52,911 bases of DNA from a virus: positions 1 through 52,911 of the IMG/VR virus record IMGVR_UViG_3300032242_000759. One strand, written 5' to 3'. The notes beneath the pieces were generated by a model. It saw only the letters and a program-made list of their open reading frames with translations. It was not told the DNA's origin and made no database searches. The translations under genes and the position numbers were made by a program. Of the stretch, positions 1,259-37,545 are shown in pieces; the stretch's first letter is position 1; each line of letters opens with the position of its first letter.

Positions 1259-1897
1259 ATGACGAACATCCCATCATGGGTGCTGACTTATGACAGCTTA
1301 ACCTCCACAGTGCTCCAGTACTTGGAGCGTAAAGATGCGGCTGTCGTCCAAGCAATTCCTACCTTCATTTCGTTGGCTGAATTTGAAGTTGCTCAAGAGA
1401 TCAAAACCTTAGGCCAATTGCAGGTAGCAAATGCCCTCATGACGATGGGTAACCCGATCCTTCAAAAGCCAGCCCGATGGCGCAAGACTGTGTCCATGAA
1501 TGTGATTGTTGGCGGCAAAAAGCAACCCATCTATCTTCGCAAGTACGAGTACCTTGAGAATTACTGGCCTGACAACACCCAAGTTGATGTGCCCTTGTAC
1601 TACGCAGACACTGACTGGGATCATTGGTACATTGCCCCAACACCTGCGTCTAACTACAATTTTGAAGTGCTCTACTATGAGCGCATCGCACCACTTAGTT
1701 CAACCAATCAGACCAATTGGCTGACACAAAACGCACCGAACGCCATGCTGTTTGGCACGCTGTTGCAAGCAATGCCGTTCCTGAAAAACGATCAGCGAAC
1801 AATTTTCCAACAAAAGTACACCGAGGCGCTCCAAGCCCTGAAAGCTGAAGATGTGGCGCGTGTTGGTGATCGTCAAGCCGTTGCCGTGGATTCCTGA
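1259..1897 (+). CDS. Head-tail adaptor protein (SU10-type)
   Basis: The 212-residue protein begins with a helical region ([20 protein letters not shown]), continues through a beta-rich middle with many aromatic residues, and ends in a helical tail with [20 protein letters not shown]. Adaptors of podoviruses such as SU10 show this layout. They form a dodecameric ring under the portal that continues the DNA channel. It sits upstream of the tail nozzle gene (3336), as expected. A second adaptor-like gene lies at 44975. The start follows an AAGGAATAAT ribosome-binding region. Confidence 0.7.
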
Positions 1898-1899
1898 TC

Positions 1900-3336
1900 A
1901 TGACTAGTTACGTAAACCCATACACCGGACAGACCATCAGCCCATCACAAGTGGGTTATGAAAACCTGACCATTAGCGCAGACACAACGCTTCAATGGCC
2001 TGTCAACGGCAACACCACAAGCGTTGTCGCCAACATCATTGAGATCACTGCCACGATGGGCGCTGGCTCATTCACTGGCTACATCAGCGGCACAACCCTG
2101 ACCATCAGCGCAGTGGCATCTGGCACTTTGAACGTAGGCCAAGTCATCAGCGGGACTGGAATTGCAATCGGAACATCGATTACCGCTTTTGGAACTGGAA
2201 CTGGCGGCGTAGGTAACTACACCGTGTCAATCTCCCAAACCGTGGGATCAAGTGGTTCACAAAGAACCATCACCACATCGCCATTGAAATTGATCATGCC
2301 TCCGGCCACCGAAGTGTCGGTCGGCCAGTCTTCTTTGATCATGAACATTGGTGCGATTGCATTTACGGTGACAGACAACAGTGGCAACACAATCGTATCG
2401 GTTGCATCTGGAATCGCCCAGTACATTTACGTTACCAACAACACCACCATCAATGGCACATGGGATGTTGTTCAATTCGGTGCTGGCACCTCAGCAGCCA
2501 ATGCTGCCACGTTGGCAGGGTACGGTCTCACGGCCATCAACACCACGCTGAACTCACAGACTGCTGTCAGCACGTTTTCTTCTGCCTACACGTTCTTCCC
2601 CGGCGATCGTGCATCTTTGTATGTGTGGACTGGTGGCGCAGGCACAGTGACTTTTCCATCTGCTGCTGACGTGGGCCCCGGCTGGTTTGTGGTAATCAAG
2701 AACGATGGAACAGGAATTTTGAACATTGCCTTGACAGGCACCAACACCATTGACAACCAAGTCAGTGCACAATTGCAAATTGCAGAATCCTTTGTTGTTG
2801 TCTCTGATGGCAACAATTATTTCAGCTATGCATACGGTCAGTCAGCCCAGTTTTTCTTTACCCAATTGGTTAAAAATATTACTGGTGGCACGGTTACTCT
2901 GACATCGGCTGAAGCTTCTAGCATCATCCAAGAGTACCAAGGCACGCTGACATCGAATTGCACGGTGATCCTTCCCCCAACGGTTCAGTTGTACTCGCTG
3001 CAAAACAAAACCACGGGCGCGTTCACGTTGACATTCAAAACGTCTTCTGTGGGCGGCACGACGATCACACTTCCGCAGAACCAAACCATCATTGCGATTT
3101 GCGATGGCACGAACGTCTACAACGCTCAGACTTCAACCTCTTCGTTCATCAATGCATTGACTTTAGGCAACGGCTCTGCTGCATCACCTTCGATGTCATT
3201 TGCTAGTGATGCAAGTACTGGCTTGTACCTTGCGGCCAGCCATCAACTTGGCTTTGCAGTCAATGGGGTGAACGGAGCAACATTGACTCCAACTGGCTTA
3301 CTCGTTCCTGTAGGGATTAACGGTGGAGCGTTCTAA
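1900..3336 (+). CDS. Glycine/serine/threonine-rich virion protein with beta-repeat module, probable tail or fibre component
   Basis: The 478-residue protein is low in charge and rich in Gly, Ser, Thr and Val, typical of beta-structured virion proteins. Residues about 50-125 hold a module with [22 protein letters not shown] and [16 protein letters not shown], which recurs in the product of the gene at 40730. The C terminus reads GINGGAF, close to the GIAGGAF end of the fibre at 46416. The stop overlaps the next start (TAATG at 3334-3338). It lies between an adaptor and the nozzle, so a tail-attached or fibre-connecting role is likely. No enzymatic motif was seen. Confidence 0.55.
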
Positions 3337-5354
3337 TGACGGCAAAAGTCATCACCCTTCAAGTTGGGCCGGGGATTCAACGCGACGGAACGCAGTTTGC
3401 GTCCGGGACGTATGTGGACGGCCTTTGGGTGAGGTTCCAGTATGGCCGACCACGCAAGATGGCAGGTTACAACGGAGCATTTCTGAACGCATCCGGTGTC
3501 AGTCGCGGGATGATTATGAGCGCCGACAACGGGATCAACTACGTAATCTCTGGCTACAACAACGGTATCGAGAGATGGACAACTGACAATGATGATGCTG
3601 TAGGTTTTGGCCCAATTCCAATTGAGCCAGCAGGTTCGATTGCCACCATCACAATTACCAATCAAGGCTCCGGCTATACCAATGGCACCTATACCAACGT
3701 GCCCATCAATGCGGCTGTTGGATCGGGCGCTGTAGCCACGGTCACAGTTTCCAGCAACTTAGTGTTTAGCGTGGTGATCACTGGCGGCGGCACTGGGTAC
3801 ATTCACAACGAAGCAGTCACCATCAGTTCGGCCAGCATTGGCGGCACTGGATCGGGGTTTGCCGGGTACGTTGAGAACCTTACAACCTATGCACCCAACG
3901 CCAATACTTTGTGGCAGATGGACATTGGTTACGATGCCTTGGGAAACGGCCAGAACAACTTGATTGCTCACCCCGGCCAAAACCTGAGCGACATTTCCTC
4001 AACGGCGAACACGCGCCCCATGTTCGGGCCTTTTACCGGAACATCGCTGTCACCTGTTGGTGTGTTTACTGAAACGGGCACCACGACTAACACATCAACC
4101 ACCGTTACCTTTGCCAACACTAATGTGGCAATTGGTGCTGGCGTATCGGTCTCAGGTGCAGGAATTCAAGCCGGGACTACTGTGGTGTCAGCCTCGACCG
4201 TTGGCGGCGTGTGGACGGCCATTTTGAGCCTTCCAGCCACTGCATCGGGCACGGTGCCTTTGACTTTTGACAACAACATCTCCGTGTCTGGTGGCATCGT
4301 GATGCTGTTTCCATACCTATTCGTGTATGGCAACAACGGCTTGATTCAAAACTGTGCGGCAGGCGACTTCAGTAATTGGACATCGGCTGACTCCAATGCC
4401 AACAACGTCTCCTCGACCAAGGTCATCAAGGGCCTGCCAGTTCGCGGCGGTACGACCTCACCTTCAGGATTGTTTTGGACTTTGGACTCTGTGGTTCGCG
4501 TCAGCTATGCGCCGACCACCGTGGGCAATCAAACCTTGTATTGGAAATATGACCTGATCACTCAGCAGTCATCCATCATCTCCAGTTCATGCGTGATCGA
4601 ATACGACGGCATCTTTTACTGGATTGGCACTGACCGATTCCTCTGCTACAACGGTGTGGTGCAAGAGGTAGAGAACAAGCAGAACAACAACTACTTTTTT
4701 GACAACTTGAACTATGCCCAACGCCAAAAGGTCTGGGTGAGCAAAGTGCCTCGCTGGGGCGAAATCTGGTGGTTCTTTCCATCTGGCAACAGCACCGAAT
4801 GCAACGATTGCATCATTTACAACGTGCGTGAGAAATGCTGGTATGACTCAGGTCAAGCCTTGGGTGCCAAACGCTCTGCTGGCGTGTTTTCTGAAGTGTT
4901 CCAACGTCCTATTTGGGGCGGTACAGAACAGAACACCGCAGGCAGATACACCCTGTGGCAGCACGAAAAAGGCACAGATCGCGTCTACACGAACAACGTG
5001 GACGCAATTGAATCCTATGTTGAGACCAACGTCCTTGGCGCACGCATGGGTCTTGTTGGCTCTGTAGATCAACCCGGAGACAACGTCTGGACTCGCATCG
5101 AAAGAATCGAGCCGGACTTTGTACAAAATGGGACAATGGATGTGATCATCACAGGCAAATCATATGCCGATGACACGGATGACCCGTCTGATCCTTATCC
5201 ATTCAATCCTGACACGCTCAAGATTGATATGAAGGAGCAGCGGCGAGAGATGCGTCTGCGCTTTAGAAGCAACACCCAAAATGGAAATTATTTCATGGGT
5301 CGAGTTTTGTTGAGCATAGACACAGGCGATGTGCGTGGATCAGGTAACCCATAA
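3336..5354 (+). CDS. Tail nozzle / packaged-DNA stabilisation protein (P22 gp10-like)
   Basis: The 672-residue protein starts with QVGPGIQRDGTQFASG followed by DGLWVRFQYGRPRKMAGYNG. That signature is common at the start of gp10-like nozzle proteins of marine and freshwater podoviruses. The central part is beta-rich and includes Gly/Thr-rich inserts around residues 95-180 and 240-300. The last third (from about residue 410) has the conserved WIGTDRFLCYNG and WWFFPSGNSTECND blocks, suggesting a beta-propeller. Nozzles close the DNA channel below the adaptor and are opened at ejection. The inserts make it longer than P22 gp10 (about 470 residues). Confidence 0.65.
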   Translation: MTAKVITLQVGPGIQRDGTQFASGTYVDGLWVRFQYGRPRKMAGYNGAFLNASGVSRGMIMSADNGINYVISGYNNGIERWTTDNDDAVGFGPIPIEPAGSIATITITNQGSGYTNGTYTNVPINAAVGSGAVATVTVSSNLVFSVVITGGGTGYIHNEAVTISSASIGGTGSGFAGYVENLTTYAPNANTLWQMDIGYDALGNGQNNLIAHPGQNLSDISSTANTRPMFGPFTGTSLSPVGVFTETGTTTNTSTTVTFANTNVAIGAGVSVSGAGIQAGTTVVSASTVGGVWTAILSLPATASGTVPLTFDNNISVSGGIVMLFPYLFVYGNNGLIQNCAAGDFSNWTSADSNANNVSSTKVIKGLPVRGGTTSPSGLFWTLDSVVRVSYAPTTVGNQTLYWKYDLITQQSSIISSSCVIEYDGIFYWIGTDRFLCYNGVVQEVENKQNNNYFFDNLNYAQRQKVWVSKVPRWGEIWWFFPSGNSTECNDCIIYNVREKCWYDSGQALGAKRSAGVFSEVFQRPIWGGTEQNTAGRYTLWQHEKGTDRVYTNNVDAIESYVETNVLGARMGLVGSVDQPGDNVWTRIERIEPDFVQNGTMDVIITGKSYADDTDDPSDPYPFNPDTLKIDMKEQRREMRLRFRSNTQNGNYFMGRVLLSIDTGDVRGSGNP

Positions 5355-5587
5355 TGGTTTGCTACGACCCACGACACATGACTTGGGATGAGTACTGCAA
5401 ACTCATGGCCGAGTTGTTTGCCCCTAACCAGTTGGGGTATGTGACAGAAGATAACTGGAGAGGCTGGGTCGATGCCTTGTCAGGGATCGGGAATTTCTCT
5501 AACTCAGGGATTCCAGATTCGCGTGGATTTGAGTCATGGCAAGACTGGGCCAAGCAAATGATAGGCATCTTAAATTTGGGGGCATGA
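5354..5587 (+). CDS. Small Trp-rich protein of unknown function upstream of the ACP gene
   Basis: The 77-residue product is rich in Trp, Asp and Asn (MTWDEYCKLMAELF, NWRGWVDALS, SWQDWAKQMIG). It has no membrane segment and no recognised domain. It is coupled on both sides: its ATG overlaps the nozzle stop (TAATG) and its stop overlaps the ACP start (ATGA). It is therefore made together with the nozzle and the ACP/ketosynthase pair, and could be a small virion protein or an accessory to the acyl cassette. Function unknown. Confidence 0.6.
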   Translation: MVCYDPRHMTWDEYCKLMAELFAPNQLGYVTEDNWRGWVDALSGIGNFSNSGIPDSRGFESWQDWAKQMIGILNLGA

Positions 5588-5868
5588 TGGACTTTCTTGA
5601 ACTGTTAAATATGGTGGCGCGTGAGGCGCGTCCCGCATTCCGTGATCTCTCTCCGATAAACAGCATGGAGATGCCGTTTGTTGAGACCGAAATTGACTCT
5701 TTGGATGGCTTGATGGTGGTCATGTACATGTCCATCATTTACGACATTGAAGACGATCTGGTCAAGGATTTCCACCCAGAAACGCCGCAACAGTTGCTTG
5801 ACTTCTTAGTTGAACACAAAAAACGCGATCCGGCATCGGTCGAAGAGGCTAAGGAGATGATCAAATGA
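5584..5868 (+). CDS. Acyl carrier protein-like protein
   Basis: The 94-residue acidic protein has the helix layout of acyl carrier proteins. Its motif IDSLDGLMVVMYM corresponds to the canonical DSL-x-x-V/M site. Ser39 is the predicted 4'-phosphopantetheine attachment residue, at the start of helix II. The C-terminal part (IEDDLVKDFHPETPQQLLDFL) matches helices III-IV. The start at 5584 gives a 4-bp ATGA overlap with the gene before; 5587 is also possible. The next gene is a ketosynthase that overlaps by 4 bp, the natural partner of an ACP, which strongly supports the call. No phosphopantetheinyl transferase is encoded, so a host enzyme would have to activate it. Divergence from bacterial AcpP is large. 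Confidence 0.75.
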   Translation: MMDFLELLNMVAREARPAFRDLSPINSMEMPFVETEIDSLDGLMVVMYMSIIYDIEDDLVKDFHPETPQQLLDFLVEHKKRDPASVEEAKEMIK

Positions 5869-6980
5869 TTTACCTCAGCGACTACCGACTGGCCTATTCC
5901 ACAAACACACAACTACTGGACGATCTGCGCCATCCTCAGGTGGTGAACTGGTTTCCAGAGTCATACGACAAGGTCAAGACTGGCCTTGTGTACCCTCCCC
6001 ACAAAGTTGCTGACAAAGTTATTGACCAAGCTTTGGCAAAGCAATTGCGTGAAGACACGCAGGCCAAGACAGCATTCATCCTTGCTTCAGGCAACAGCCA
6101 CTTTGCTGGCATCAATCCGCTCAAGCTGGAGCCCACCCGGCTGACCTACGAATACAAGTTCCTGCCACTGACGTTGACTCAGGTCTACGCTGGCCGCACG
6201 GCTCAGGCTTTTGGTGCAGCAGATCACATCGTCACCGACTCCAGTGCCTGCGCCTCCAGCATGAAGGTGCTGATGGATGTCCAGACCCTGATGCGCTTTT
6301 ATGGCTTTAACCGGGTGATCGTATTGGCCGTTGAGGATCAAATCAGCAACTTGACGCTAGGTTTCTTCGGCGAGACTGGTGCTTCTCTATGCTGGAAAGA
6401 CGAGAAGGATGGCGCAAAGCCATCAGCCTTTGACAGTGTCAATGGTGGCTTCCATGTGGGCCAAGGTGCCTGTTTGGCCGTTTTTGAGGACGAGGAGACG
6501 GTCAAACGCCGGGGAGTAACCCCTAAAGCACGACTTTTGGGTGCATACACGGCCAGCGAGGACTGTGCAAATGCCATCGGTCAAAGCGATAATGGCGAAG
6601 GCTTTGTGAAAGCCGCCAAAGGAGCCCTCAAAATGGCCGAATTAAGCCCTCAAGACATTGTTGTGGTCAAGTCCCATGGGACAGGTACCAAGTCCAACAA
6701 CAGGGCTGAAAGAGCCGCCATTGAGACCTTGTTCGACAAATTTGTAGCGACCTCGTACAAACAAGTAATCGGCCACACCATGGGTGTCAGTGGCTTACTT
6801 GAAACTTGCATGTTGATCGATGACATGGCTAAGGGCTTTGTGCCGGGCATTCCTAACAGGACAGAAGAAGATGATGTCTTCTTGTCGCATGACCTGTACC
6901 CACCTGAAGGTGCTTTTATTTCTTTGGCGGCTGGCATGGGCAATGTGTACTCAGCCGCAGTAATGACAACGGAGTTGTGA
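5865..6980 (+). CDS. Beta-ketoacyl-ACP synthase-like (thiolase-fold) protein
   Basis: The 371-residue protein is a condensing-enzyme homologue. It has the nucleophile motif DSSACASS with Cys129, the first histidine motif KSHGTGTKSNN with His271, and YKQVIGHTMGVSG with Lys299 and His304, spaced as in KSxxGHxxGAAG. The glycine-rich C-terminal strand is SLAAGMGNVYSAAVM. The full Cys-His-Lys-His set is kept, so decarboxylative Claisen condensation on ACP is chemically possible. It is shorter than FabF/FabB (about 410 residues), mainly at the N terminus. It overlaps the ACP gene and sits between virion genes, so it is expressed late. It may extend acyl chains or move an acyl group to another target; the substrate is unknown. 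Confidence 0.85.
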   Translation: MIYLSDYRLAYSTNTQLLDDLRHPQVVNWFPESYDKVKTGLVYPPHKVADKVIDQALAKQLREDTQAKTAFILASGNSHFAGINPLKLEPTRLTYEYKFLPLTLTQVYAGRTAQAFGAADHIVTDSSACASSMKVLMDVQTLMRFYGFNRVIVLAVEDQISNLTLGFFGETGASLCWKDEKDGAKPSAFDSVNGGFHVGQGACLAVFEDEETVKRRGVTPKARLLGAYTASEDCANAIGQSDNGEGFVKAAKGALKMAELSPQDIVVVKSHGTGTKSNNRAERAAIETLFDKFVATSYKQVIGHTMGVSGLLETCMLIDDMAKGFVPGIPNRTEEDDVFLSHDLYPPEGAFISLAAGMGNVYSAAVMTTEL

Positions 6981-6981
6981 C

Positions 6982-7413
6982 ATGCCAATAAATTCAAAAC
7001 AACAACACTTGAACTCCGCAGGAGTCATCTCGGATTGGCTCAAGCACAATCCCCAGCCCCATCCACCACAGGTAATGATGGCAGGCATCCTGCAAGAGTT
7101 GAGCGACCCATCCGTAAAGACCAAGCAGTTTGGCAACACTCTTTTTGAAGTCATGCCCGGCAAAGATGGGCAAGCATTTTTCAAAGCTTTCAATGCTGAC
7201 AGCGGCCCAAACTTTGTTGACAACAGCAAATTGTTTTGTGTATGGGCGCGGCGTGTCTTGGGGCTCAAAACTTTGGTCACAGAATTTAGCGATCCATCAC
7301 TTGAGCGTTTGTTCAAGATTATTTCAATGAACCCTCCAATCCCAAAAATGGGGTATCAGGTCTTTCATATGAGCAATGGATCAACTCGTATTGCTTTGAA
7401 TTTGGGGGTTTGA
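6982..7413 (+). CDS. Unknown protein, possible T7 gp13/GNAT-like accessory
   Basis: The 143-residue protein contains GQAFFKAFNADSG, LKTLVTEFSDPSLERLFKII and MGYQVFHMSNGSTRIALN. The last part resembles the final strands of compact acetyltransferase-fold proteins found beside podovirus internal proteins (T7 gp13-like). An acetyl-CoA pyrophosphate loop cannot be confirmed by eye. It starts one base after the ketosynthase stop and ends one base before the next large gene, so it belongs to the same transcript. If it is an acyltransferase, it would fit an acyl-transfer cassette; this is tentative. Confidence 0.4.
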   Translation: MPINSKQQHLNSAGVISDWLKHNPQPHPPQVMMAGILQELSDPSVKTKQFGNTLFEVMPGKDGQAFFKAFNADSGPNFVDNSKLFCVWARRVLGLKTLVTEFSDPSLERLFKIISMNPPIPKMGYQVFHMSNGSTRIALNLGV

Positions 7414-7414
7414 T

Positions 7415-10312
7415 ATGGGTGCCGTTGTAAGCGCAGTTGAGAGTGTTGTTAGCGCGGTAGGCAATGCCGTAGGCGAAGTTGTCCATGCAGCAGAACAAGT
7501 TGTAGAGACAGTCGTTAAAGACGTAGTCGAGCCTGTTGCAAAAGTTGTTGAAAACACTGTTCAAAGCGCCATCAACGATCCAATTGGAACAATTGCCAGA
7601 GTTGCTGCTGTAGCCACAGGCAACGTCGAATTGCTGCCATTGATTGGTGCGGCTGATGCGGCAGCACATGGGGCTTCTCTTGACAAAATTTTGCTTAGTG
7701 CAGGCACATCGTATGTGGCTGGTCAAATCGGCACCAATATTGGCGATCAGATTGGTACTGGGATCAGTAACAACTTTGATGTTTGCTTGAGTTGCAAGGT
7801 ACAGGATGCATTAAACAGTGGTGTCAAAGGTGCTACAGGTTCACTTCTGCGCGGTAAAAATCCTTTGTGCGGCGCAATCAGCGGCGTTGTCAATAACGAA
7901 CTTAACTGTGGCATCAAGACTGCATACAAGTGCATCACCAGCGGGTCAAGTGATTGCGGCCCTAAATGCACAGCGTTGCCTATTGTTACTCGTGGATTGT
8001 CTAATGATTGCACTCAAGGCTGTGCATCAAAAGTCAATGTTGGCGCTTTACCAACCATTTCCAACAACAACGATCAAATTTCGAATAACCAACAATGTTG
8101 TGTCTCTACCAACAATAATTTAAATAACAAAAATTGTTCCACTAATACATCGTTCCAAGGCTACCCATCCGTTCAAGCATTTTTGAATGCTCAAAATCAA
8201 AAGTTTGCTGAGGATCGCGGATTTCCTGATTTTGCAACTGGAGCAAAATTTGGTTGGGATTGCGTTGCTTACAACAATCAAAACCAAACATGTGCCACCA
8301 CAAACATCAGCCCAGTAACCGTCACTGGTCAAAAAGGAAATTGTTGTGTTGGTGCACTGCCAACGGTAATGACATCAACAAATACAAATGTATGTTGCTC
8401 TTCTAAGGTCGGTGCATTACCAACTGCAAATGTTATTGGCAATTGCTGCTCATGCATTACACCTATAACCACTGTTACAAACAAAACAAGTGATTGCTGC
8501 ATACCTGTTACCAGAGGATTGACATCGGTCACAAGTAAAACGAACGATTGCTGCGTTTGCACAAGTCCAGTAACCACCGTTACAAGCAAAACAAATGATT
8601 GCTGCGTGCCTGCGATAGGTGGCTTACCAACCGTTACTACAACGTCGAAAACAACTGATTGCTGTGTATGCACCACACCAGCAGTAACGACCACTGCAAA
8701 GACAAGTGATTGTTGCGTTCCTGCGGTAGGCGGTTTACCAACCATTGCCACAACTTCAAAAACAACTGATTGTTGCGTACCAAGCGTTCCGTTAATTAAC
8801 GTAACTGGAAAATCTGGCGATTGCTGTAATTGTTGTATTCCCGCATTGCCACCCGTAACTGTCACAGGGAAAAAAGACACCTGCTGTTGCATTCCTGAAC
8901 TGCCTCCAGTTACCGTCACTGGCAAAAGAATTGATTGCTGCTGTATCCCTGAATTACCACCTGTTACCGTAACGGGCAAAAAATCAGACTGCTGCTGTAT
9001 TCCAGAATTGCCTCCCGTTACAGTAACGGGCAAAAAAATTGACTGCTGTTGTGTTCAAGAGTTGCCACCTGTCACCGTAACAGGTAAAAAAATTGATTGC
9101 TGTTGCATTCCTGAATTACCTCCAGTTACCGTAACGGGTAAAAAAATTGATTGCTGTTGCACTGTTGAACTTCCACCTGTTACTGTTACAGGAAAGAAAA
9201 ACTCATGTTGCTGCACCACAGAGTTACCTCCAGTAACTGTTACAGGTAAAAAAATTGCTTGTTGCTGCACTACGGAGTTGCCACCTGTCACCGTAACTGG
9301 TAAAAAAATTAATTGCAGCGATTGTTGTGATTGCTGCAAAATTCCGAATATTAATTTTCCAAAATTTAGTACTCCAGTTACAAAACCCAAAAAGCCTGCT
9401 AAGAAAACAACGACTGCATTGGGTGGTCTTGGATGCGGCGCTATTCCATGGCTGAATTCCGCTCCTGAAGTTTTAGCAAATGCAAACAGCCTGAGTCATA
9501 TTCTTAAAAGAGATGAGAACAGCTTGAAAAATATTCAAAATCAAATTAACCCAGACTTGTTGGAACTTATGAAGCAGCGCGGTAATTTTGGCGGCGTACC
9601 TGAAGTGAAAATTGGTGGCTTGTCAGCATTAGATTGCTCTCCAACTGGTTACGCTGTCGGTGGTTGTGTGGCTGGTTGTACGTTTTGCATGAACCAAAGT
9701 CCAAAGTACATGCCAAGATTTGTGTGCACTGGCGCAGATGTATTGTCTGGTTCTTCTGCATCGCGTCATGCTCCAACATCATTGGCTCAACTCAAACAAA
9801 TGCGTGCCCAAATTTCCCAAATGGGGAACATGGGCGGCATGGCACATGGTGGATTGCCACGCAAATATGCAGAGGCTGCTCCCGAAGGTCACCATCCTGA
9901 ATTCATTACCGGAATGACAGGGTACTATGCATGTGGTGGCGGCACTGGTCAGTCAGACGACATTCCAGCCATGCTCCATGACGGCGACTATGTGATGGAC
10001 GCTGAGGCTGTATCTGCGCTTGGCGACGGTTCTAGCAAGGCTGGCCGCGAAGTCTTGGATGGCTTCCGCAAACAAGTTCCACACCACGAATCAACCAAAG
10101 GCCAAGCGGTTCCGGCCAAGATTGCTGATGGTGAATACGTTTTCCCCGCTGGATTTGTGACCGCTATCGGTGGCGGCAGCAATAAAAAAGGCGCTGAAAT
10201 TCTAAATGGCCTGCGTGAGCAATTACGAATGCACAAAAGATCAGCACCCACCAGTAAAATACCCCCTAAAGCGAAATCACCGCTGGACTACATCAAGAAG
10301 GCGAAAGGTTAA
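7415..10312 (+). CDS. Large internal virion (ejection-type) protein with tandem LPPVTVTGK / CCC repeats
   Basis: This 965-residue protein has three parts. Residues 1-120 are Ala/Val-rich amphipathic and glycine-rich helices, typical of membrane-active ejection proteins. Residues about 220-640 are Cys-rich: first units such as TSKTTDCCVP, then nine tandem 16-residue units of the form ELPPVTVTGKKIDCCC (nt 8844-9310). Residues about 800-965 carry two copies of a motif seen in phage internal and tape-measure-like proteins (SDDIPAMLHDGDYVMDAEAV and AKIADGEYVFPAGFV). The repeat peptide resembles TonB boxes of outer-membrane transporters. Repeat codons differ while the residues stay the same, which argues for selection on the peptide. 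It follows the ACP/ketosynthase genes and precedes another Cys-rich internal protein. Confidence 0.7.
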   Translation: MGAVVSAVESVVSAVGNAVGEVVHAAEQVVETVVKDVVEPVAKVVENTVQSAINDPIGTIARVAAVATGNVELLPLIGAADAAAHGASLDKILLSAGTSYVAGQIGTNIGDQIGTGISNNFDVCLSCKVQDALNSGVKGATGSLLRGKNPLCGAISGVVNNELNCGIKTAYKCITSGSSDCGPKCTALPIVTRGLSNDCTQGCASKVNVGALPTISNNNDQISNNQQCCVSTNNNLNNKNCSTNTSFQGYPSVQAFLNAQNQKFAEDRGFPDFATGAKFGWDCVAYNNQNQTCATTNISPVTVTGQKGNCCVGALPTVMTSTNTNVCCSSKVGALPTANVIGNCCSCITPITTVTNKTSDCCIPVTRGLTSVTSKTNDCCVCTSPVTTVTSKTNDCCVPAIGGLPTVTTTSKTTDCCVCTTPAVTTTAKTSDCCVPAVGGLPTIATTSKTTDCCVPSVPLINVTGKSGDCCNCCIPALPPVTVTGKKDTCCCIPELPPVTVTGKRIDCCCIPELPPVTVTGKKSDCCCIPELPPVTVTGKKIDCCCVQELPPVTVTGKKIDCCCIPELPPVTVTGKKIDCCCTVELPPVTVTGKKNSCCCTTELPPVTVTGKKIACCCTTELPPVTVTGKKINCSDCCDCCKIPNINFPKFSTPVTKPKKPAKKTTTALGGLGCGAIPWLNSAPEVLANANSLSHILKRDENSLKNIQNQINPDLLELMKQRGNFGGVPEVKIGGLSALDCSPTGYAVGGCVAGCTFCMNQSPKYMPRFVCTGADVLSGSSASRHAPTSLAQLKQMRAQISQMGNMGGMAHGGLPRKYAEAAPEGHHPEFITGMTGYYACGGGTGQSDDIPAMLHDGDYVMDAEAVSALGDGSSKAGREVLDGFRKQVPHHESTKGQAVPAKIADGEYVFPAGFVTAIGGGSNKKGAEILNGLREQLRMHKRSAPTSKIPPKAKSPLDYIKKAKG
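8844..9310 (+). repeat. Tandem 48-bp coding repeats (LPPVTVTGK-CCC units)
   Basis: Nine in-frame copies of a 16-residue unit lie here, each LPPVTVTGK followed by Lys/Arg, a variable pair and a Cys triplet (a C-S-D-C-C cluster in the last). Less regular units continue upstream to about 8300 (SPVTVTGQK, NVTGKSGDCC, SKTTDCCV). The third codon positions vary freely between units, so the array is conserved as protein rather than as DNA. Confidence 0.95.
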
Positions 10313-10314
10313 AA

Positions 10315-12213
10315 ATGGCAAACTTACTGCAATCCTCGCAAAACAAAGAAACGACAGCACCGGGTTATTACACCAACTATCTGTCTGATCTTGCAAGCAA
10401 GGGCCAAACAGCCCAACAAAACGCTCAGTTTGTTTGCGCCCAGCCACTCCAAACCAAAGCATTCACTCAAGCATGCCAAAACTTTGGTGCGTTTCAAGCG
10501 CCCATCACCACTGGTGAAGGCTACACGGGCCAAGCCGCAAGTCAAAACGTCACTGGTGCAGCGACTCCATTTCTTCAAGCAGCAACTTCAAACAGCCCTT
10601 TAAGCACCCTGACACCATATGCCCAGAGCGCCATGGGCACCACTGGTTTGCAAGCTGGTCAATGCTTGATCAAACAAGGCGCTGGCATGTCTGGCTTGAG
10701 TTCGGCCAGTGGTTTTCTTGGCCGTGCAGGCAATACTTGCGCTGCTGCCTTAGCGGGTGCAGATGTCAACCGTGCCACTGGCATGAGCAGCGTATGTGCT
10801 GCAAATCCTTATTTGGCTCAAGCCGCAACAAGCGGCGGCATCAACAATGCCCAGCCTTATTTGTGCAAAGGCATGAACATCAATGCTCTGTGCACAGCAA
10901 GCCCCTATCTTCAAAAAGCCGCTCAAAATGGTGGTTTGTGCGCGGCTCAATCATATTTAAGACAAGCGACGGGCACCAGCCCGGCCGACTTGGCCGCTCA
11001 GTACATGAATCCCTATCTCAAGACTGCCGTTCAAGGCATGTCTGATGTGGCGCAACGTAACATTCAGCAAAACCTTGCACCTGCTGCCACTGCGGCGGCT
11101 GTTGGCTCTGGTCAATTTGGTTCTCAGCGCGGCGCTCAAGTGCTGGGCCAAGTCAAGGCTCAAGCCGAGCAGTGCTTGAACAACCAGATTGCACAGATGA
11201 TGTCTCAGGGCTATGGACAAGCTTTGTGCGCCGCTGGCAAGCAAAACGCATTGGCTGCAAATGCAGGCCAGACCGCAGGCACTTTGGCGCAACAGCAGGC
11301 TTCTTTGCTGGCTCAATTGGGTCAAACTGCTGGTACGTTGTCCACACAACAGCAACAGAACATTCTCAATGCGGCCAATACGGCTGGTACGTTGGGCCAG
11401 CAACAAGCTGGTCTGTTGGGCAACTTGGGCCAGACTGCTGGTTCATTGACTGCACAGCAACAGCAGAACCTGATCAATGCAGGAAACGTAAAAGGTACGT
11501 TGGCACAACAGCAGGCCAATTTGCTTGGCAACTTGGGATCGACTGCCGGGTCGTTGACCAATCAGCAGGCTCAAAACATGCTCAATGCTGGATCGAACCT
11601 TGGAAACTTGCAACAAGGTGCAAACCAAATTACGGCTGGTTTGGGATCAACTGCGGCCAACGCTCAAGCACAACAGAACCAAGCCAACCTCACTGCGGCT
11701 CAAACCGCATCGCAGGCGGCGGCAAGCCAAGGCAATTTGTTAAACCAAGCAGGCCAGAACATGGGTGCCTTGGGCACTCAAGCGGCCAACATGAACTTAG
11801 CCTGTATCAACGCACTGTCAACTCTTGGCGGCCAACAACAGACCATTGCTCAGAACAAGCAAAACTTCCCGCTCACTTCTTTGTCATCTTTGGCTGGTTT
11901 GCTTCAGGGCTACAACATTCCCGTTGGCTCCAAGACCACTTTGTGCATGTCGCCTTTCTCTGCGGCTGGCGCTCTTGGTGCTGGCGCACTGGGTACGTTG
12001 TGCAAATTGCCCGGCATTAAAAAATCGCTTGGCAATATTTTTAGTGGCAAGTGCGGCAAAAAATGTGAGCCTGCATGCTGCTGCACTTGCTGCTGCACTT
12101 GCTGCTGCTGTACCTGTGCAGCAAGCGGCGGCTTAATCAAAGCAAAAGCCAAAGGTTACAGAGGCTGTGCTTCTACCAAATCTCGTGGCGCATTGCCATC
12201 CAAGAAAGGTTAA
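10315..12213 (+). CDS. Ala/Gln-rich internal (ejection) protein with Cys-cluster C terminus
   Basis: The 632-residue protein is rich in Ala, Gln, Asn and Gly. Residues about 315-440 repeat units such as AGTLAQQQASLLAQLGQTAG, which predict long amphipathic helices like those of podovirus ejection proteins. The N-terminal third has scattered repeats of the type NPYLxQAA / CAAxSYL with many single Cys. The C terminus has KCGKKCEPACCC followed by TCCCTCCCCTC before a basic, Gly-rich tail. Internal proteins pass through the tail into the host envelope. The Cys clusters suggest metal binding, disulfide cross-linking or S-acylation. It starts two bases after the 965-residue gene. Confidence 0.65.
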   Translation: MANLLQSSQNKETTAPGYYTNYLSDLASKGQTAQQNAQFVCAQPLQTKAFTQACQNFGAFQAPITTGEGYTGQAASQNVTGAATPFLQAATSNSPLSTLTPYAQSAMGTTGLQAGQCLIKQGAGMSGLSSASGFLGRAGNTCAAALAGADVNRATGMSSVCAANPYLAQAATSGGINNAQPYLCKGMNINALCTASPYLQKAAQNGGLCAAQSYLRQATGTSPADLAAQYMNPYLKTAVQGMSDVAQRNIQQNLAPAATAAAVGSGQFGSQRGAQVLGQVKAQAEQCLNNQIAQMMSQGYGQALCAAGKQNALAANAGQTAGTLAQQQASLLAQLGQTAGTLSTQQQQNILNAANTAGTLGQQQAGLLGNLGQTAGSLTAQQQQNLINAGNVKGTLAQQQANLLGNLGSTAGSLTNQQAQNMLNAGSNLGNLQQGANQITAGLGSTAANAQAQQNQANLTAAQTASQAAASQGNLLNQAGQNMGALGTQAANMNLACINALSTLGGQQQTIAQNKQNFPLTSLSSLAGLLQGYNIPVGSKTTLCMSPFSAAGALGAGALGTLCKLPGIKKSLGNIFSGKCGKKCEPACCCTCCCTCCCCTCAASGGLIKAKAKGYRGCASTKSRGALPSKKG

Positions 12214-22005: not shown

Positions 22006-22635
22006 ATGGACAAACTTGAAGAAATGCACTACTTCGCCACCCCGGTATACGTAGTGGACAAAGCAGATTTTTTAGAGCCAGTTCGCACTGTTTCTAACCG
22101 ATACATTGAAGCGGCCAAGCAGCACAAAAACAAAGACGATTACGTGGTGCTCATGACTGGCAGCTTCTCGCATGAGCCAGAGTTAAAAGACTTCTCCGAG
22201 TACATCAGCCAGACCGTTTGGAACATCCTGTCTTCTCAGGGTTACAACATGGACAACTTGGTGACGTACTTCACCGAGATGTGGACGCAAGAGCACAATT
22301 ACTTGTCTTCGATGGACACCCATGTACATGGATCAGGTTCGCAGATGACTGTATTCTTTTTCATTGATGTACCTGAGAAAGGCTGCAAGTTGGTGGTTCA
22401 TGATCCACGGCCCGGCAAAGTCATCATCAATCTGCCGCAAAAAAGCGATGATGAAATCACGATGGGATCACATCAGATTGTGTTCACTCCAAGGCCCGGC
22501 ACGTTAATCTTCATGAACGCATGGGTACCGCACTCGTTCACCAAAAACTTCAGCAATGAGACCATGCGGTTTGTGCACATGAACTTGTCGGTGGCGGTTG
22601 CACCCGAAGAAGAAAAGTCGGTGGAGGTGATATGA
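22006..22635 (+). CDS. 2-oxoglutarate/Fe(II) oxygenase-like protein
   Basis: The 209-residue protein has the layout of small 2OG-Fe(II) oxygenases of the TIGR02466 type. Candidate iron ligands are the histidines in MDTHVHGSG (His106, His108) and WVPHSF (His176). Arg188 in MRFVHMNLSV is a candidate 2-oxoglutarate contact. The intervening beta strands (SQMTVFFFID, CKLVVHDPR, GTLIFMNAW) fit a jelly-roll. Such phage enzymes may hydroxylate proteins or nucleic acid; the substrate here is unknown. It is the first gene behind its own operator/promoter and overlaps the next gene by 4 bp. Confidence 0.65.
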   Translation: MDKLEEMHYFATPVYVVDKADFLEPVRTVSNRYIEAAKQHKNKDDYVVLMTGSFSHEPELKDFSEYISQTVWNILSSQGYNMDNLVTYFTEMWTQEHNYLSSMDTHVHGSGSQMTVFFFIDVPEKGCKLVVHDPRPGKVIINLPQKSDDEITMGSHQIVFTPRPGTLIFMNAWVPHSFTKNFSNETMRFVHMNLSVAVAPEEEKSVEVI

Positions 22636-37013: not shown

Positions 37014-37089
37014 TAGCCCCACTCCGGGGCGAGACCGCGCTGACTAAGCGCATAACGATGCACCTGAAATATGGTGTCAAGGAGCGATG

Positions 37090-37545
37090 ATGAGTGAGAA
37101 GTTGAAGATTGTGACTTTTGAGAGCACAAATGACACGCCAGACCCAGAAGAGTTGGCGTGGGCTTTCCCAGATGTAAATCCGGGAATGATTCCTTTGGGT
37201 GGGCGAGTAATCGTCAAACTCCGACGAATCAAAAAGAAGACAGGACGCATCGTTCTGGTTGAAGAGACCAAAGAGAACGAAAAGTGGAACAACATGATCG
37301 GCCAAGTCGTCGCGTTGGGCCCACTAGCGTACAAAAATCGTGACACCATGCAAGCATGGCCGGAAGGCTCTTGGGCGCAGGTAGGCGATTTCGTTCGAGT
37401 CCCTAAATGGGGCGGCGATCGTTGGGAGATGAAAGACCCAACGAACGAAGAGAACGAAGACCCGGTGTTGTTTATGACATTGAATGATCACGAGTTGATT
37501 GCCAAAGTCACGAGCAACCCACTTTCTTTTAAAGCCTACGTCTAA
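37090..37545 (+). CDS. GroES-like co-chaperonin
   Basis: The 151-residue protein shows a GroES-type core: MIPLGGRVIVKLRRIKKKTG at the start of the barrel, NMIGQVVALGPLAYKNRDTM, and GDFVRVPKWGGDRWEM. The barrel ends with the MTLNDHELIAKV strand, similar to the DDVLAII end of GroES. T4 gp31 and other phage co-chaperonins replace GroES so that GroEL can fold large capsid proteins. The gene sits between portal and scaffold/capsid genes, which fits that role. ATG at 37090 (GGAG five bases upstream) is preferred to 37087. Confidence 0.75.
   Translation: MSEKLKIVTFESTNDTPDPEELAWAFPDVNPGMIPLGGRVIVKLRRIKKKTGRIVLVEETKENEKWNNMIGQVVALGPLAYKNRDTMQAWPEGSWAQVGDFVRVPKWGGDRWEMKDPTNEENEDPVLFMTLNDHELIAKVTSNPLSFKAYV

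Follow-up and report, generated by a model that had tools for sequence, protein, structure and literature searches.

An acyl carrier protein-ketosynthase gene pair of short-tailed phages and its association with a GNAT-fold protein of the virion module

The stretch of DNA analyzed here, called the window below, is the 52,911-base IMG/VR virus record IMGVR_UViG_3300032242_000759. Here we describe two overlapping genes from its tail region, encoding a predicted acyl carrier protein (ACP) and a predicted FabF-like ketosynthase (KS), together with the gene that follows them, D, whose product is predicted from its modeled structure to have a GNAT acyltransferase fold. Many uncultured short-tailed phages carry this inseparable ACP-KS pair, usually among the genes of the injection apparatus, and in all records that are long enough the pair is found only in phages encoding D, even when the pair and D are unlinked. 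The relevant features of the window are the following.

1259-1897, forward strand: SU10-type adaptor (head-tail connector), a marker of the virion module (Pfam SU10_adaptor, 1.3e-22; phrog_2941)
3336-5354, forward strand: tail nozzle or P22 gp10-like stabilization protein (phrog_3287, 1.9e-27; the homologue in MW202545 is annotated "phage stabilization protein")
5354-5587, forward strand: small conserved open reading frame (ORF), small77, between the nozzle and ACP genes (iterated profile, 49 loci)
5584-5868, forward strand: predicted ACP, 94 aa, phosphopantetheine site Ser39 (codon 5698-5700), isoelectric point about 4.3 (profile, predicted fold)
5865-6980, forward strand: predicted FabF-like KS, 371 aa, with Cys129, His271, Lys299, and His304 and the gate A-G-M-G-N (Pfam, NCBIfam, PDB sequences)
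6982-7413, forward strand: D, predicted GNAT-fold protein, 143 aa, in the position of T7 gp13 and P22 gp14 (AlphaFold2, fold comparison)
7415-10312, forward strand: first internal/ejection-type protein, 965 aa, with Cys-rich 18-aa repeats (conserved neighbor of D)

The order nozzle, small ORF, ACP, KS, D, and internal protein is kept in most loci, small77 sharing a few bases with each of its neighbors. The genes of the ACP-KS/tail block in the window overlap or are separated by gaps of a few bases, and no forward promoter-like site was found between positions 3000 and 8000; because of these two observations, co-transcription of ACP-KS with the tail/ejection block in this window is very likely. 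An earlier sequence-only reading had placed the pair between the nozzle and the internal-protein genes, which holds in the window and in most relatives, except that D (6982-7413) separates KS from the internal gene.

The first gene of the pair, ORF 5584-5868, is identified as an ACP from its sequence family and its modeled fold. The protein is acidic, starts at the ATG at 5584, and carries Ser39 in the motif IDSLD. As a single sequence it has no Pfam ACP match; the Pfam PP-binding family weakly matches 21 of 66 members of the family (best E 0.0018), none reaching the gathering score and the window protein being unmatched. A profile of the 66 relatives was compared with PDB, where the best match has E 2.4e-5 and all 60 matches listed are ACPs or ACP subunits; in a profile comparison with AcpP of E. 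coli, the alignment covers the DSLD motif and the subsequent helices. Structure prediction and profile searches had both been proposed as checks in the sequence-only reading. The AlphaFold2 model (predicted local distance difference test score, pLDDT, 92) matches the carrier-protein fold: carrier proteins top the lists of two fold comparisons, with Z up to 8.1 over 75 residues, and the top rows of Foldseek are uniformly carrier proteins at weak E-values, 0.065 at best. The explanation by a chance DSL motif was rejected, given the invariance of DS[LM]D, the PDB profile matches, and the predicted fold. The coordinates of the small protein and its 4-bp overlap with the condensing enzyme, read earlier from the letters, are confirmed, and its identity as an ACP is confirmed by the profile and by AlphaFold2.

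ORF 5865-6980 appears to be an elongating (KAS I/II type) superfamily ketosynthase outside FabF proper, and condensation activity is predicted for it. It exceeds the cut-offs of both Pfam ketosynthase domains (63.0 and 29.3 bits versus 20.8) and matches solved FabF structures in a PDB sequence search (E 1e-26), in agreement with its former assignment to the FabF/FabB type. Its score against the NCBIfam fabF equivalog is 118.3 bits, below the cut-off of 493.75. There is also weaker similarity to the acyltransferase AmcF (cispentacin) and to polyketide KS profiles, the FabF profile scoring best. The catalytic residues reported by the sequence-only reading are indeed encoded in the window: Cys129 by TGC at 6249-6251, His271 by CAT at 6675-6677, Lys299 by AAA at 6759-6761, and His304 by CAC at 6774-6776. 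When 42 viral KSs were aligned with 20 cellular ones, the catalytic residues and the Glu following the first His proved to be kept in the viral proteins. The N-terminal part of the fold had been considered lost; judged by alignment, the active Cys precedes its counterpart in E. coli FabF by about 34 residues, and residues 1 to about 50 match poorly, so that the N-terminus is better described as shortened and divergent. The GFGG loop of FabF controls acyl entry and elongation. In this loop, Phe400 of FabF is replaced by Met in all 42 viral representatives (GMGN in 41, GMGS in one), whereas all 20 cellular KSs have GFGG with Phe400. Because of this change from GFGG to GMGN, an altered substrate preference of the viral KS is likely. 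The earlier suggestion of a changed substrate choice is thus plausible, although by way of the gate and not by loss of the N-terminus.

Conservation of the pair was assessed in an IMG/VR scan from the KS family, whose search patterns did not contain the catalytic residues. It gave at least 547 encoded relatives (338 in an earlier scan), and the KS-selected sample of 165 fetched loci contains 141 distinct KSs and 125 distinct ACPs. IMG/VR contigs are non-independent samples, and counts of distinct proteins were used where relevant. The ACP gene lies directly upstream of KS in all 163 assessable loci, the two remaining contigs beginning inside or just before KS, and the overlap is exactly 4 bp in 158 of the 163 (ATGA in the window). 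In an independent search started from ACP, KS adjoins ACP in 77 of 80 loci and the other three contigs end right after ACP; KS was thus found in 77 of 77 assessable ACP-selected loci. Cys129, His271, Lys299, and His304 are invariant in all 141 distinct KSs, and so is the motif DS[LM]D in all 125 distinct ACPs. The median ratios of nonsynonymous to synonymous substitution rates (dN/dS) are 0.058 for KS and 0.059 for ACP in 18 close pairs, and 0.076 for D; both members of the pair are under strong purifying selection. Since the two genes are never split, the catalytic residues are invariant, and dN/dS is low, ACP and KS are predicted to be functional and very probably work together, forming what seems to be a virus-specific two-gene acyl-condensing cassette.

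The same pair is present in GenBank record MW202545, where KS is annotated as 3-oxoacyl-ACP synthase and ACP as hypothetical. The KS annotation in MW202545.1 (locus L002, 20001-21101) is 156 bp too short at the 5' end; the homologous start is a GTG overlapping ACP by 4 bp, as in the relatives. The matching PHROGs family, phrog_35856, is without a function.

The origin of the viral KS was addressed by a GTDB pattern scan of 84,980 species genomes, which returned a single KS relative, on a metagenome-assembled contig also bearing D and the internal-protein gene. This contig (L085, JAGYJQ010000016.1) was binned as a Balneolaceae genome and carries the ACP-KS-D-internal-protein block; because the pair sits there with D and the internal-protein gene, it is most likely phage DNA. 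Other cellular KSs from 148 genomes of the phylum of that assembly, the only phylum covered in this way, score at most 98 bits, versus 626 for the viral-type KS. In the phylogeny, built from 42 viral and 20 cellular sequences, a branch with support 100/100 and a very long stem separates the viral KSs, which thus appear to form one virus-only clade far from the cellular KSs. No close cellular donor was found in the 84,980 GTDB species genomes or in the 148 genomes of the one phylum. Recent capture of KS from a host is therefore unsupported, given the single relative on a phage-like contig, the low cellular scores, and the deep clade.

Gene D follows KS with a gap that is usually only a few bases. 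A PDB sequence search and Pfam gave nothing convincing for its product, and the assignment to the GNAT acyltransferase fold came from the predicted structure. The AlphaFold2 model (pLDDT 95.7) matches an acetyltransferase (Z 12.1; root mean square deviation 2.6 A over 125 residues) and many GNATs at Z above 10; "Internal virion protein A" and a DUF2824 protein are among its viral matches. T7 gp13 and P22 gp14 (DUF2824) are encoded at the equivalent position, between the tail and the ejection genes, and a cobavirus GNAT protein has been assigned to the T7 gp13 position (PMC6775973). No similarity was detected by hhalign between the D profile and the single sequences of T7 gp13 or P22 gp14.

Association of the pair with D was observed from three starting points. 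D is present in 154 of the 165 KS loci, the rest being contigs that end early or members of a relocated lineage described below; in L029 and L142 it lies beside KS. Conversely, KS is beside D in 76 of 80 D-selected loci, and all 25 D-selected contigs of at least 30 kb have KS, at D in 24 and unlinked in one. A search started from the adaptor, and thus blind to both D and KS, gave three arrangements: ACP-KS-D in 10 contigs, D alone in two, and neither in 19 that extend more than 7 kb downstream. ACP-KS therefore occurs at the site in none of the 19 adaptor-selected contigs without D and in 10 of the 12 with it (Fisher test, 1.5e-6, uncorrected for kinship). In nine D-negative records of more than 30 kb, no KS was found anywhere, and D is absent from them throughout. 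The D label switches about nine times along the adaptor tree, and well-supported branches force at least three of these switches, which indicates that the block was gained and lost repeatedly; transfer of the whole block would be enough to account for this part of the association. As a separate observation, the sister phages L262, L266, L318, and L331 have the same adaptor and nozzle without D, and encode a different, often very large protein (up to 1767 aa) right after the small ORF.

In a second lineage (L012, L045), nested inside the viral KS tree, the pair lies in the replication region, flanked by a helicase gene and by small genes. G164 (39.8 kb), the longest record of this lineage, encodes D away from the pair, in a normal virion module from which ACP-KS is absent; in both G164 and another record, G172, ACP-KS follows the helicase gene and D lies in the virion module elsewhere in the same record. 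That the unlinked pair still occurs with D is the best evidence for a functional tie beyond neighborhood. The relocation also implies that late co-transcription with virion genes is inessential. Thus the former statement that the pair belongs to the late region and not with early metabolism genes fails as a general rule, while the proposed survey of gene order in relatives found the pair never split and mostly in the tail/ejection block, this lineage being the exception. A third small gene, coding for about 100 aa, is present in this lineage and overlaps the stop codon of KS (L047 11101-11418, L349 5098-5409, L366 11101-11400); that of L047 has no Pfam or PHROG match.

Our preferred reading of the locus, still tentative as a whole, is a pathway of acylation by ACP, KS, and D. 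Its first steps, an active holo-ACP and a condensing KS, are highly probable. A search of 10 related phage records for phosphopantetheinyl transferase, FabD (malonyl transferase), and FabG-type reductase found none of them, while the positive controls were detected in 10-13 of 14 known genomes; these activities must therefore be supplied by the host. Host phosphopantetheinyl transferase and malonyl-CoA:ACP transacylase would load the phage ACP, and KS would use malonyl-ACP to extend an acyl primer by condensation, yielding beta-ketoacyl-ACP that host enzymes perhaps reduce, with the altered gate loop tuning the choice of chain. D would take the acyl group from its dedicated ACP and pass it to an amine, the acceptor being most likely a virion (ejection) protein or, during infection, a target in the host; by gene order, the ejection proteins are the natural candidate. 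The delivery of the acyl group to D is conceivable but doubtful. More doubtful still is the general proposal that these phages make a dedicated acyl donor for a virion-module GNAT, which would give gp13/gp14-like GNATs an enzymatic role.

Several observations weigh against this pathway. D is without the usual Q/RxxGxG/A acyl-CoA loop between beta4 and alpha3, as placed from the secondary structure of the model, and has N-A-D-T-A-x-N instead, with N71 and D73 invariant and N77 in 124 of 126 sequences. This loop and the lack of sequence similarity to T7 gp13 and P22 gp14 together allow two readings, a non-enzymatic relic or an acyltransferase using a carrier-protein acyl donor; D could be a non-enzymatic morphogenesis protein, as was suggested for T7 gp13 (PMC6775973). 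Four D-selected loci keep the gene order with a clean gap at the ACP-KS site, and two adaptor-selected loci have D without an adjoining pair. Five of these six records are fragments of 8-28 kb that show no KS at all; the sixth, L236 (record G172), has ACP-KS elsewhere. D was not seen in the other contigs of the relocated lineage, which are fragments no longer than 27.7 kb, and one relocation event may underlie all the unlinked cases. The association with D could also be due in part to exchange of a linked cassette as a block. The virion role suggested by the sequence-only reading is thus retained insofar as the pair is tied to a virion-module gene even when unlinked, while a direct role in ejection is not supported, several D loci having no pair beside D, one of them with the pair elsewhere.

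Nearly as likely as the acylation pathway, and likewise short of probable, is auxiliary fatty-acid metabolism, where ACP and KS would alter the acyl-ACP pool or membrane of the host (chain length, unsaturation) and the link to D would reflect descent and linkage. Type II fatty-acid elongation has KS and ACP at its core, and publications describe acpP, fabF, and fabG as auxiliary genes carried by phages (PMC8224337, PMC7029224, PMC11705849). The lineage with the pair among replication-region genes and the phages with D but no pair beside it fit such remodeling of host lipids as well. However, the pair belongs to a deep virus-only clade and is no recent host copy, occurs in long records only with D, even when unlinked from it, and has the FabF gate altered in every viral member. 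It is unlikely that the pair makes a small diffusible acyl product, such as a signal or a compound inhibiting rival phages or bacteria, that is released by D or by a host enzyme acting as acyltransferase. KS and ACP without reductases do resemble minimal polyketide or acyl-amide units, the similarity to AmcF and polyketide KS profiles points the same way, and D has the predicted GNAT fold; but no further biosynthetic gene or exporter was recognized nearby by Pfam or PHROG, and the FabF profile gives the best KS score. It is quite improbable that ACP and KS have become enzymatically inactive assembly factors or structural proteins of the virion. Most copies do lie between nozzle and ejection-protein genes, but deep divergence has left the catalytic residues and the phosphopantetheine serine unchanged, clean empty sites exist in otherwise intact virion modules, and one lineage keeps the cassette away from the virion operon.

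Some other features of the window should be mentioned. The internal-type proteins encoded at 7415-10312 and 10315-12213 are extremely rich in cysteine, with 75 and 27 residues; an 18-aa repeat, CCCIPELPPVTVTGKK, occurs about eight times in tandem, and there is also a run CCCTCCCTCCCCTC. Close relatives retain these features, which are absent from more distant ones. These proteins were considered as general targets of S-acylation, and this was rejected, since L007, L009, and L010 have ACP-KS but Cys-free internal proteins. A GroES-like co-chaperonin gene lies among the head genes (37087-37545, phrog_3188) and is annotated in MW202545 too, and a putative 2OG-Fe(II) oxygenase is encoded in the early region (22006-22635, Pfam 2OG-FeII_Oxy_5). 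No tRNA genes were found in the 52,911 bases.

Until now, the ACP and KS genes of phages have been regarded as stray genes of the host that serve lipid supply. In this analysis they emerge as a single virus-only, never-split unit that is present in hundreds of viral contigs and is tied to a GNAT of the virion module even where the two lie apart. This leads to a specific and testable claim, transfer from acyl-ACP through the GNAT to a virion or host protein, and bears on the role of the GNAT-fold proteins that adjoin ejection proteins in short-tailed phages. If the claim is true, some phages chemically modify their own particle or the host with a home-made acyl group. In the searchable literature, which excludes most subscription papers and all preprints, no account was found that treats ACP-KS as a unit confined to viruses or connects it with D.

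Each component of the locus has counterparts in known systems. The phage ACP shares with type II ACPs (AcpP) its acidity, the DSLD site, and the predicted helical fold, but is about 15 residues longer, with a C-terminal helix, and its single sequences fall under the Pfam cut-off. The viral KS shares with FabF and FabB (KAS I/II) the thiolase-type KS architecture, the Cys-His-His residues plus Lys and Glu, and both Pfam domains; it differs in its identity of only about 25-30%, the shortened N-terminus, the altered gate, and the separate clade (100/100). D has in common with T7 gp13, P22 gp14, and the GNAT neighbors of internal virion proteins the predicted fold and the place after the tail genes and before the ejection proteins, whereas T7 and P22 are without ACP-KS in the annotated region and D has no detectable sequence similarity to gp13 or gp14. 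Finally, ACP genes were reported in phages as auxiliary genes (PMC5463345, PMC11705849, PMC10152775), including the ACP of Alteromonas phage R22Y (PMC11705849); roseobacter prophages are reported to carry an acpP-fabF-fabG set (PMC8224337), and pelagimyophages to carry fabF (PMC7029224). A phage-borne ACP or KS is common to these cases (PMC8224337, PMC11705849, PMC7029224) and to the window. According to the descriptions in those papers, the reported genes are host-like, present singly or as a copy of a host fab cluster, whereas the pair described here is virus-only, never split, and tied to a gene of the virion module.
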